Part shown: positions 4,561 to 64,000 of the stretch, piece after piece
Position numbering within the stretch: position 1 is the first letter of the stretch
Layout of the letters: every line of letters begins with the position of its first letter
IMG/VR virus record: IMGVR_UViG_3300050821_005389
Coordinates: 53,044 to 117,043 of that record
Strand: one strand, 5' to 3'
Source: a virus
Length of the DNA: 64,000 nucleotides
The notes under the pieces: model-generated
Told to the model about the DNA's origin: nothing
The model's database searches: none
What the model saw: only the letters and a program-made list of their open reading frames with translations
Translations under genes and position numbers: made by a program

Positions 4561-7500
4561 TTAACAACTCCGGTCAACCCAGTCGGTGGCGGAGGAATCG
4601 TTCCACTATTGATAATATAAGTCGCTTGGCTCGGTGGCGTCGTGTCGTTAAATCCGGTCAGCGTGCCGATCGCTGTCAAAACGGTAGTTCCGGTAGCGAC
4701 TGGTATAGCAGTTCCAATATAAGTTTGAGTCGTTCCGCCGGAACAAACATGGCTAACTTCCGTAGGTGTTGAGCCGTCGGTAGTATAGCAAATCGTAACG
4801 GAGCCGGGTGTAGTAACAGATAGCGTGACGTTTTGCGATCCCGTATAGGTCCCGCCTGCGGGAGCGAATGTTACTTGAGAAACGGTCGGTGTAGTTGATT
4901 GTTGCTGCTGGTAAGCGAATAAAGCCGCAGTGCAAACCAGTCCACTAGCGCAACTAAAAGATTGACTCGTAGCCGTTGATAGCGGTTGTGGATAAACCGG
5001 CGTTGACGCAAAAAAATTGACCGTTTTATCTGGCGTAACACCGGGTTCCCAACAGCCAGGACTTTGACCCGTCACCGGATCGAGGGCGGCGTTTAAACCG
5101 CCATTGCAAGGATTATTGGCGATTAATCCGGTACCGTTGGTACACTCAATAGTCAATGAACTAGTCTGACAGTTATTATGAAATTTCTGCCAATTGACGA
5201 TTTGCAACCCGTTCGGAGTAGAGTTTCCGCAACCGCCCGCAGCGTTTGAGTTGGCAACGCAACTGTACGTTAAGAACCAATACGGCGTAGGATTACCATT
5301 TGGTGCCGGCAACAAAAATGGTATCGAAGTGGAACTAGCCCAATTAGTATTGCATGTCGACGGTCCGTTACAGTGTCCTCCGGCTAATCCGTTCACGGTA
5401 AATCCTTGCATGGGTTGCAGCGTTGCAACGTTTGTATCCGGTGTATATTGACTCGTCAACGCCGAACCCTTTAGAATACAATTATCAGTTACGTAATACT
5501 GGTGACTATATCTTTCCTGTGGATACGATCCACCGATCGATTGAACCAATTGTAAATACAATTCGTAATCTGGCTGCCACTCGTTTGCCGCAGTCGTAGA
5601 GTTACTAGGTATTCCGATCTTCGGGCCTACGACACCGCACAATCCATATCCCCAGTCGCCGTAACTGGTCCCGTTTGCTACGCCATTAGGCAAAGAAAGC
5701 TTGGCTGGACCACCGGTAAAAGCTGGCGGCGTTGTATTTAAAAAGTGGTGGAAATTGTCGTAGCCTAATCCGCCGGGATTCCACAAAGTTTTTGGCTGGA
5801 AATGTTCTTGGTCGATGTAATTTCCTATGGCATAAGCACTTTGCAGTAAACTACGATCGCTCAGTATTTGTGTATTGCTACTCGTCCCGTTTAAAACCCC
5901 CGTAAATGTCACTCCACTCCAATCATACCCTCTGATATACTCTTCCGTTTGAGCAAATTCAAAAATTCCTTCTTCAAGCTGCGAAGTCATAAAAGCTTTT
6001 GTCGTTGCGTGATTCGTAGGATCATCACCCGGTGGAATAGCTGCGTTTATTTGCATCGTAGCGGCACTCGACGGACCCGGCGAAACTCCGCAAGTTGCTC
6101 CGCTACTCAACCCAGTGCAACCCGAAGGCGATCCGGTTCCGGTCGGAGTATTGCTGCTATACGTGATTGTTACATTTGTTCCAGTTACATATGCTGAAGC
6201 GCATCCTACCGGATGGCAATCAAAAGCTACAGGCGTTACGCCCGAGACATAAACTGGCGTTGGCGATCCCGACGAAGTACTTATTCCGTCACAATTTGCT
6301 CCGGTCGAATCTGTCGGATAAACGTTTGTGCAAGCTGCGGTTACTACAGTAGGCGGTCCTGCACTCGTGACTGAAATCGATGAAATAGGAATCGTAGCGA
6401 TAAAACTGTCGCTGACTCCATTATATTGAAAACCTCGGACTGGACTGATACCGGAAGAACACGGTCCGGCGCCTTGTCCGCCGGTGATAAAGCCGTCAGG
6501 ACAATTAGTAGAGTCTGTCAACCCTAAAGGAAAGCCGGCGTCTATTTGAGGATTCTGGACAACGTAAGCTATGATATTTTCACCAGCCAAGGAAATACCA
6601 GTAGCTTTTCCAACAGGAGTTATCAACGGGTGAGGATAAGTATAAGGCGTATATGTATAAACGACCGGACATCCCGCCGATTGATCTGCCGCCGATTCGC
6701 ATCGATTCAGTGTTGCGGGTGCACTAGCCGGAAGGACTAAATCGCAAGGATTATGATTCGGAGATACGGAAGCACAAGCACCTACGCTAGCCCCTGATTG
6801 AATATAGGTCGTATTTCCGTTGAATAATTTCCATAAAGCCGTATTGCCAGAAATACCCCAAATGTAAGCAGGACTTGATGTTTGATTGATACCTCTACCT
6901 ATTTGAGTTTGCAAAGGATAAGTCGCCCCAGGCTGGCAATCTTCGGTATACTCAAACGCTCCTTGAATAGTGTTACCGCCGGTTACCGTTTCATTAAATT
7001 CTATTCCACTACCGCCGCGGAGAGAAGTATAGTTTGATTGGTTAATTCCGGCAAATGTATTATACGTGTTGTTGTAAAGCTCCCAAAAACGAGTACTGTT
7101 TTCTGAATCAGTAGGTGTACAAGAAACCGATCCTCCGCTACCGTGTGCGTCAAACTGCATGTTATTTAATGTGTTGTGGCGAGCTGTTATGCGAGCAGCA
7201 CTAAAATTTTCAATGCACGAAGACGCGTCGAAGAATCCACTAGTTGATAAATAGGTACAAGTATTATCTTCAAAAAATCCCGATACCGGACCGCCCGGAA
7301 CATAATCATTCGTCCATCCAGTAGGAAAAGTTCCGAACCAAGAATTATGAACTAACTCATCTGATCCGTGATGGGCAGTCAGAGTGTTATGATCCATTAA
7401 CCAGGCGCCACCGCCAGAAAAAGCTACGATTGTTCCTTGCGCTGCCGGCGAACCGTCATCAAAAGTATTGTGATCGAGTCTAAATGTAGCTCCTGTCGTT

Positions 7501-46401: not shown

Positions 46402-46411
46402 AAAATCTATG

Positions 46412-46525
46412 CTAGGACAACTCTGACCCCGGACTCAGGGAAGTAGTTGATCGTGTCCTTTGATCATTCCGTCCTAGCAACTCTTCTGGCGGAGTAGAAA
46501 CAGGCACCCACCCGTTCTGTGTCAA
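46412..46525 (-). CDS. possible 37-residue peptide
   Basis: Frame from TTG 46525 behind AAGGGGAA: 'TQNGWVPVSTPPEELLGRND'. The start resembles the DUF551-type 'W.pV' opening but is short. It is the only coding candidate in a 160-base gap. The same TTGACA could be read as a -35 box, but no good -10 follows. Confidence 0.3.
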   Translation of the reverse strand: MTQNGWVPVSTPPEELLGRNDQRTRSTTSLSPGSELS

Positions 46526-46561
46526 GAAAGGTTCCCCTTAATTGAATTCTCCGCCAAACTT

Positions 46562-46783
46562 TTATTTTCGCCGGCCGTGAATTTCATAAGTCTTTTTCAA
46601 TTGCGACTTGCTATCCAGCATACAAGGATCGTTGCCCTTGGCGATATCACCCATCAGGACTAATCCTATTATAGCATAAATCGACTCGATTCCCTTGTTC
46701 TCTTTGTACTTCTTCCGGAGCTCGGCTGAAAATGCTCGGTTGTCCAGAGTTTCCAGTCGTTCGCCCCACGTCATCGGTATCAT
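46562..46783 (-). CDS. hypothetical protein, 73 residues
   Basis: ATG 46783 with AGGAG six bases upstream. Helical ('SAELRKKYKENKGIESIYAI'). It overlaps the C-terminal third of the zinc-finger gene in another frame; the good ribosome site favours it as a real gene. Confidence 0.5.
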   Translation of the reverse strand: MIPMTWGERLETLDNRAFSAELRKKYKENKGIESIYAIIGLVLMGDIAKGNDPCMLDSKSQLKKTYEIHGRRK

Positions 46784-56848: not shown

Positions 56849-57556
56849 TTAGTCTCCACAAAGAAAAGGTCCAGGCATGTCCATATGACAAAAATTGCCG
56901 GCCTTACGACACTCATCCAGCCACTTTACGGTATACGCCTGCGCCGCTAGTTGCTCTGCGCAATATCGCCATGTCTTATTCTTAGGCTCAACTGTACCGC
57001 GTTCAATCCAATCTCTCAAATATTTGAAATCTGGATCGTTCAGGCTTGATCCCCTACTCACTCCGCCATTATCATCTACCGTTTCATAGGACTTCATACA
57101 CCACGCTCGGCCGTCTCCAAATTGAATAGATTCATCGTATATTTCTGTCTCAACTACCCAGCCTTTCGGACACATCCAATGGCCGGGATCGTTATATGTA
57201 CTTGGATGCCAATGGGCTTCAGGACGAGCTAAAATTATTACCGACGTAGGATCTTTAGAAACCGGACAATTATTCTTTACCCAATCTAAAGCATCACTTA
57301 GAGCGGCATCCTCCGTATTGTATCTGCGTGGAGTAGTTGACATCCAATCGTCACCGGGATAGAAAAACCACATCGTTTTGCCCGTGTTTGTTTGAACATT
57401 ACCGAAAACTCTGTTGTTTTCGTCGCACACCACTCCAAAATCGTCTTCAGATATTTGAATTATGTGGGCGCCGAGGACAGCAACAGGAACCATTTTCTGT
57501 TTATCTTTTTGCGTGACTTGGAGTTGCATCAAAATCAACAACACTGCTGTTAGCAT
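56849..57556 (-). CDS. exported Cys-rich protein
   Basis: 235 residues with an N-terminal hydrophobic start ('LTAVLLILMQLQV'). 'HWMCPKGWVVETEIYDES' and 'GRAWCMKSYE' repeat the module in 49894-50646. A second Cys cluster near the C-terminus. ATG with AGGAGG. Its mRNA leader contains the branched RNA at 57577-57680. Confidence 0.6.
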   Translation of the reverse strand: MLTAVLLILMQLQVTQKDKQKMVPVAVLGAHIIQISEDDFGVVCDENNRVFGNVQTNTGKTMWFFYPGDDWMSTTPRRYNTEDAALSDALDWVKNNCPVSKDPTSVIILARPEAHWHPSTYNDPGHWMCPKGWVVETEIYDESIQFGDGRAWCMKSYETVDDNGGVSRGSSLNDPDFKYLRDWIERGTVEPKNKTWRYCAEQLAAQAYTVKWLDECRKAGNFCHMDMPGPFLCGD

Positions 57557-57576
57557 TTGATCCTCCTAAATGAATC

Positions 57577-57680
57577 AGCACCCGCAGGCTCACGTTACTC
57601 CCGTACCGCAGCCCGGCCACTCGGCTCTTCCTATCGGTTCGCACCTTTAAGGATTTTAGAGTAGTGACTGTGCGGGTGCT
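57577..57680 (-). ncRNA. branched structured RNA in leader of Cys-rich gene
   Basis: Minus-strand RNA of about 104 bases. P1: 10 perfect pairs AGCACCCGCA (57680-57671) with TGCGGGTGCT (57586-57577). P2: TCACTACTC with GAGTA-AC-GTGA (two-base bulge). Inside are two arms: TCCT/AGGA enclosing GGT-GCGA-ACC, with a GNRA loop, and AGCC/GGCT. No U-run, so not a terminator. It ends 12 bases before the AGGAGG site. Candidate riboswitch-like leader or separate ncRNA. Confidence 0.6.
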
Positions 57681-57685
57681 AAACC

Positions 57686-58012
57686 TTAGCGCCCATCTCT
57701 GGCGATAGTCTGTTTTAACGATCCCGATACCTTCTGGCCTACTAGCGTACTCTGATCGTCCAGAAAATACTCGTAAGCTACTAGAAGCTTCACGACTGGC
57801 TCCGGCGGCTCTTTCGCTGTTTTAGTAATGAACCAATTACGAGCCTTATTTTCTCGAGTCTCGACGCGACCGCGGTTTGACGACTTAGCATCAGCGCGAG
57901 GACACTGCTCGTGAAAGTACAATCTCCGTGAATTCCCACCGCTGTTTTCTGTCTCTGCATAAGCTCTAGTACCGATTACCGAAATACCGCAATGATGACA
58001 TTCGTAGGCCAT
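57686..58012 (-). CDS. zinc-site protein, 108 residues
   Basis: N-terminal 'AYECHHCGISVIGTRAY' and 'LYFHEQCPR' suggest a zinc site; the remainder is basic and helical. ATG 58012 with an AGGAG at 12 bases. Ends just before the structured RNA. Function unknown. Confidence 0.55.
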   Translation of the reverse strand: MAYECHHCGISVIGTRAYAETENSGGNSRRLYFHEQCPRADAKSSNRGRVETRENKARNWFITKTAKEPPEPVVKLLVAYEYFLDDQSTLVGQKVSGSLKQTIARDGR

Positions 58013-63462: not shown

Positions 63463-64000
63463 CTAATAACTCTCTGCCTCAATCCGAGTCAAGAAAAAAT
63501 GTATCCCGCCTCCGCATTCCGTCCAGCGATCCTCATTCCATTTGTCACAACGAACGATTTCACCCTTGCGGTACTCAGTCTTACCGTCATGACTTGAAAT
63601 TCCTAGATCGCTGCCGAACACACGCAATACTTGTACATATTCTGCCCGACATTTACGGCCAGAAGCATTAGATCGCTTTGCTTTTTGAGGGATCAAGAGT
63701 TTAACTATTACGTTGTCTCGACATTTCTTCCAACCTACCACATTTCCCTCGGATACTATACTTACCTGAGCTTGTGCCAATTCGCTATTTAACGCGCCGC
63801 TGAGGTCCGCTCTTCTGAGGTCCGCGCCGCTGAGGTTCGCGCTTCTGAGGTCCGCGCCGCTGAGGTCCGCGCCGCTGAGGTCCACGCTTCTGAGGTTCGC
63901 GCCGCTGAGGTTCGCGCTTCTGAGGTTCGCGCCGCTGAGGTCCGCTCTTCTGAGGTCCGCGCCGCTGAGGTTCGCGCTTCTGAGGTTCGCGCCGCTGAGG
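63463..64000 (-). CDS. pentapeptide-repeat protein, start beyond window
   Basis: At least 179 codons, open to the window end. N-terminal part consists of A(D/N)L-x-x pentapeptides ('[20 protein letters not shown]'), which fold as a right-handed square helix. The C-terminal 95 residues ('[20 protein letters not shown]', '[15 protein letters not shown]', '[15 protein letters not shown]') match the DUF5758 type that often follows such repeats. Role unknown; a GTG at 63885 is not the true start. Confidence 0.7.
63790..64000 (-). repeat. 30-bp tandem repeats in pentapeptide gene
   Basis: Repeating unit of 30 bases (two pentapeptides) of the plus-strand form GCGCCGCTGAGGTYCGC-GCTTCTGAGGTYC, near-identical across at least seven copies to the window end. 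High DNA identity implies recent expansion and copy-number change. Confidence 0.75.

Follow-up and report, generated by a model that had tools for sequence, protein, structure and literature searches.

A three-way junction RNA predicted between two phage accessory genes, and candidate kissing-loop leaders of mobile endonuclease genes in the same phage family

Genes and features at the locus

The DNA analysed was a window of 64 kb comprising bases 53044–117043 of a 117-kb viral contig, from a soil-type phage, and coordinates are those of this window unless another sequence is named. A non-coding RNA element of 104 nt, predicted by folding to form a three-way junction of the parts P1, P2 and P3, lies at 57577–57680 on the minus strand, which is also the strand of both adjacent genes. 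The upstream gene (57686–58012, minus) encodes an orphan protein of 108 aa with an N-terminal CxxC, and the downstream gene (56849–57556, minus) an orphan protein of 235 aa with 8 Cys, starting with the ATG at 57556. The element starts 5 nt past the upstream stop, where an earlier reading of the letters by themselves (the sequence-only reading) had also placed it. The Shine-Dalgarno (SD) sequence AGGAGG of the downstream gene (57562–57567, minus) is found 9 nt past P1 and 5 nt ahead of the ATG; the former distance had been given as 12 bases. The element exactly occupies the same-strand interval from a stop to an SD. The downstream product had also been described as secreted and Cys-rich. Secretion is plausible but unproven, the N-terminus being short and hydrophobic and having no basic n-region.

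Synteny comparison places the element in a variable, accessory region of the window (approximately 49.9–63.4 kb). The neighbours of the element have no match in relatives, whereas the core replication genes (helicase, polymerase and exonuclease) do match them. Beyond this region a 15-nt tandem repeat array spans 63748–64000 and reaches the window end; it sits in a 140-aa frame (63463–63885) with ADLSGADLR-like pentapeptide repeats.

Predicted fold of the element

The sequence-only reading had given no strand for the RNA. The fold is assigned here to the minus strand, so that RNA position i corresponds to window position 57681−i. The predicted shape is a three-way junction in which a 10-bp outer stem encloses two arms, both capped by GNRA loops (GCGA and GGGA). 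The outer stem P1 is a 10-bp inverted repeat whose 5' arm AGCACCCGCA (57671–57680, minus) forms 10 perfect pairs with the 3' arm UGCGGGUGCU (57577–57586, minus), 57680–57671 pairing with 57586–57577, and one or two weak pairs follow beyond. It is the same perfect outer stem that had been noticed from the letters. When folded within a 250-nt leader context, nine of the ten P1 pairs had pairing probabilities of 0.95–1.0.

The P2 arm (57616–57668, minus) rises from a 6-bp base, GUCACU/AGUGGC, through a 1x3 internal loop (A / CCG) to the 4-bp helix CUCU/AGAG, after which come a 4-nt bulge (AAAA), the helix UCCU/AGGA, an internal loop UAAA/GAU and the cap GGU-GCGA-ACC. The second stem of the sequence-only reading is therefore present, but as helices of 6 and 4 bp separated by an internal loop and not as 9 bp with a 2-base bulge. 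The GCGA tetraloop closing this arm (57639–57642, minus) had been noticed in that reading as well. The P3 arm (57587–57613, minus) is closed by UAC-GGGA-GUA, and its GGGA tetraloop (57599–57602, minus) is a second GNRA loop that had gone unnamed.

Folding of the 250-nt leader gave no sequestration of the SD by the element. If the SD pairs at all, its predicted partner is the first part of the coding sequence that it serves (57517–57530). The site has no U-run, in agreement with the sequence-only reading, and a search for intrinsic terminators returned none there.

Fold strength against controls

The minus strand folded at −46.7 kcal/mol, whereas its shuffled versions averaged −32.5 (z −3.92) and only 1 of 200 of them folded equally well; the fold noticed from the letters is in this respect better than its shuffled controls. 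The plus strand gave a weaker z of −3.0. In a tiling control of 104-nt windows at 52-nt steps along both strands of the 64 kb, the energy of the element was below that of every tile, as was its GC-corrected residual (−3.7 SD).

Controls drawn from the phage family were less favourable. Branched folds with a closing helix of at least 8 bp around two arms occurred 300 times in real and 288 times in shuffled sequence of the family, that is, at chance frequency, when the architecture was searched for in 12 relatives to find cousins unrelated in sequence. By energy per base the element is practically the lowest of the non-coding branched folds of the family. The whole gap that holds it ranked 20th of 517 intergenic folds from 13 related genomes (z −3.3). 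Taken by these folding models, the fold is strong without being overwhelming, and it is probably real, with some uncertainty.

Another three-way junction was observed in the window at 46485–46558 (minus, 74 nt, z −3.5), with a 10-bp outer stem and two arms, within a 245-nt gap (46402–46646). By eye it has no sequence likeness to the element, and a comparison with Rfam gave nothing above background.

Search for relatives and known classes

The element had no match at the gathering threshold among the 4227 models of Rfam release 15 and nothing meaningful up to E = 10, in line with the sequence-only reading, which had recognised no Rfam class. ARAGORN found no tRNA or tmRNA in the window. A blastn search of 2.3 Gb of phage and 7.3 Gb of plasmid DNA returned no copy of the element beyond a chance-level match of 24 bases. 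This match, to microvirus MG945904, comprises 24/24 identical bases (CCTTAAAGGTGCGAACCGATAGGA, at the top of P2; E = 0.01). It was taken as chance: the covariance model recognises just that stretch (18 bits), and in the microvirus the matched bases form a different hairpin that is followed by UCUUUU. A relaxed form of the stretch had no match in IMG/VR.

Relatives of the phage were gathered with its major capsid protein, a 286-aa frame in the contig that was named by its position and copy pattern and not by a family match. This gave more than 100 related contigs, of which 80 were kept (72–82% identical). A covariance model of the element, which being built on a single sequence reaches only close relatives, found no instance in 50 related phage records or in twelve relatives of 91–111 kb (1.2 Mb). 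The core pattern CCTTAAA-N3-GCGA-N3-GATAGG was searched for in 85,000 genomes and retrieved a dispersed palindrome of Robiginitomaculum together with scattered single matches, which were set aside; none of its seven matches in viral sequences had the element. The palindrome (approximately GTCCTTAAANNAGCGAAGCGATAGGAC) occurs on many contigs (L097, L099–L101, L103, L108–L110), and its hairpin, GC-GAA-GC, differs from that of the element.

The two flanking proteins had no relative in the viral sequences and phage records searched or in 31 related records, and no useful match in Pfam, PHROGs or PDB. The 235-aa protein was not recognised as an endonuclease by any search that was run. As no homologue was found in the records searched, there is no sign of selection on the element.

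Interpretation of the element

We tentatively read the element as a cis-acting structured RNA or spacer that lies between two cistrons, in the leader part of a transcript of co-directional accessory genes. This reading is based on the z of −3.9 on the gene strand, which beats that of the other strand, on the lowest energy and GC-corrected residual among all tiles of the window, on the way in which the element fills the stop-to-SD gap on the same strand, and on a P1 that is stable in the leader while the SD stays free and no terminator is present. It is weakened by the lack of a homologue and by the comparable branched folds that shuffled sequence yields. Transcription of both accessory cistrons would run through the element, which would fold into the three-way junction as soon as it is transcribed and would leave the SD outside the fold. 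Judged from the letters alone, the GGGA loop of P3 may also dock with P2 at its UAAA/GAU internal loop. Any effect of the element on its mRNA is something that we infer. The sequence-only reading had proposed a candidate cis-regulatory RNA or else a stand-alone phage ncRNA, and of this the non-coding nature, a fold beyond that of shuffles and the strand of the neighbours stand, while the regulatory part is so far unsupported in view of the missing homologues and the free SD.

Nearly as likely as such a structured leader is a fold under no selection at all, namely a GC-rich non-coding stretch of a fast-evolving accessory region that has no function of its own. The empty homologue searches, the orphan flanking genes, the equal frequency of branched folds in real and shuffled sequence and the modest rank of the gap among intergenic folds are all consistent with this, but it accounts poorly for an energy lower than in any tile of the window, for the rarity of shuffles as good, and for the exact placement in the gap, on the strand of the genes, with two GNRA loops. 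A regulatory leader in the manner of a riboswitch or a protein operator, through which a ligand or a phage protein would set the translation of the 235-aa protein, is unlikely. The element lies in the leader 9 nt from the SD, and AUCCU-UAAA of P2 (57654–57646) can pair with UUUA-GG-AGGAU of the SD region over 9 bp with a 2-nt bulge. An anti-SD switch of this kind was rejected, however, as the alternative is approximately 20 kcal/mol worse (−60.3 vs −80.1); moreover P2 forms before the SD exists, the predicted partner of the SD is the start of its own frame, and no Rfam riboswitch matched down to E = 10.

A stand-alone small RNA, excised from the mRNA or transcribed apart from it, is if anything a little less likely again. 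It would suit a fold of 104 nt that is closed by a stem holding both of its ends, and the only promoter-like site near the element on the same strand is a weak sigma-70-like one (57682–57653). This site agrees with the consensus, which may not be the one used by this phage, at 9/12 positions, and it is at chance level (6 such sites found against 4.1 expected); it overlaps the element, so that a start there would remove the 5' arm of P1, and there is no terminator. More doubtful still is a new and rare class of phage regulatory RNA in which a junction docked through GGGA and UAAA/GAU would serve the downstream gene as aptamer or protein operator. An element acting at the level of DNA and bounded by its inverted repeat, such as a small transposon relic or a recombination site, is very improbable: the terminal repeat of 10 bp is indeed perfect, but the 117-kb contig holds one copy and the phage and plasmid DNA searched holds none, no target duplication is visible, and the interior folds as well. 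A dispersed repeat or MITE was rejected on the same single copy, as more than one would be required.

Compared with known systems, the element resembles the RNA structures near the ribosome binding site (RBS) of T-even phages in being a stable RNA directly 5' of a phage RBS. In these phages the genes I-TevI, segB and mobE, which code for homing endonucleases, have RNA hairpins that sequester the RBS, and seg43 of Aeromonas phage 25 has a very stable, non-sequestering hairpin directly before the RBS, whose role was left undetermined there (PMC2988022). The element shares with the seg43 hairpin that the RBS is left free, and that hairpin serves as a precedent for the structured-leader reading. 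The T-even leaders are however single hairpins, whereas the element is a branched junction and its gene is no endonuclease by the searches run. Likewise, leaders of the I-TevI and mobE type hold the SD inside the upstream structure, whereas the predicted partners of the SD here are in coding sequence (57517–57530). Leaders of that type also have a late promoter so placed that late transcripts are made without the 5' arm; on this point the locus shows the weak sigma-70-like site at 57682–57653, which is at chance level. With the cis-regulatory families of Rfam 15 the element shares a typical size and leader position, but it matches no model. It is a compact RNA of a phage accessory region that falls outside what Rfam describes, and as a lone orphan it carries little weight until relatives or transcripts turn up.

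Loop:SD leaders in the phage family

The intergenic folding controls revealed that the best-folding gaps of the relatives share one leader architecture. A hairpin of 7–16 bp with a 7-nt loop, CCN5, is followed by a hairpin of 4–5 bp and then by the start codon. The second hairpin has a 7-nt loop, N5GG, and its 3' arm carries the rest of the SD (GGAGAG). As a safeguard against circularity these leaders were detected without using the pairing between loop and SD. The loops were complementary at all five variable positions in 75/76 leaders, while five shuffled sets yielded 11 leaders and zero full matches. A scan of IMG/VR with a pattern blind to the pairing gave 46 matches, all 46 of them fully complementary. 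Altogether 93 distinct leaders were detected, of which 92 are complementary at each of the five variable positions. The 5-nt loops come in 40 different sequences, and the third and fourth loop:SD pairs show all four Watson-Crick pair types. Stem 1 covaries too, and most of the variation in stem 2 falls on its pairs three and four.

Protein matches downstream of the leaders (n = 84, E ≤ 0.001) were to Endonuclease_7 (37), GIY-YIG (17), NUMOD3 (15), HNH (5) and SegE (4), counts that overlap since one protein may have several matches. We regard these leaders as a candidate intramolecular kissing-loop lock on the RBS of mobile endonuclease genes, through which translation would be repressed. As such the class would parallel the hairpins that silence homing endonucleases in T4, with a kissing loop in their place. 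It matters more than the element, being very well supported by covariation and found at nearly a hundred genes of homing-endonuclease type. No Rfam family matched these leaders, and no description of them was found in the open-licence full-text literature; an earlier description elsewhere is possible.

Five copies are present in the contig itself, at positions 5401, 11141, 13875, 20644 and approximately 24800 (5401, 11141 and 13875 of segment L006; 2145 and approximately 6303 of L007), all outside the window, and a further 87 distinct leaders occur in relatives (e.g. L155 18909, L165 8354, L120 19560 and L171 4415). A relative of the capsid protein was recognisable in 16/32 further leader-bearing records, the remaining ones often being fragments. 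No loop:SD leader was found inside the 64-kb window, and the element is not of this class. Both are structured leaders of the same phage genome, but in the loop:SD leaders one hairpin carries a CCN5 loop that is complementary to the N5GG of the SD, whereas the loops of the element are of the GNRA type and lack this pairing.

Two further observations were made in the relatives. Phage G043 has a bacterial class A RNase P RNA (L155 19139–19446, minus) that scored 102.6 bits at a gathering threshold of 100 and adjoins a tRNA array; large tRNA arrays are present in several relatives, against zero tRNA in the window. In G054, G059, G066 and G072 the match to the capsid protein is in two pieces, broken at about residue 70 and several hundred bases apart, of which G059 has only the first; this suggests that an intron or some other insert interrupts the capsid gene.
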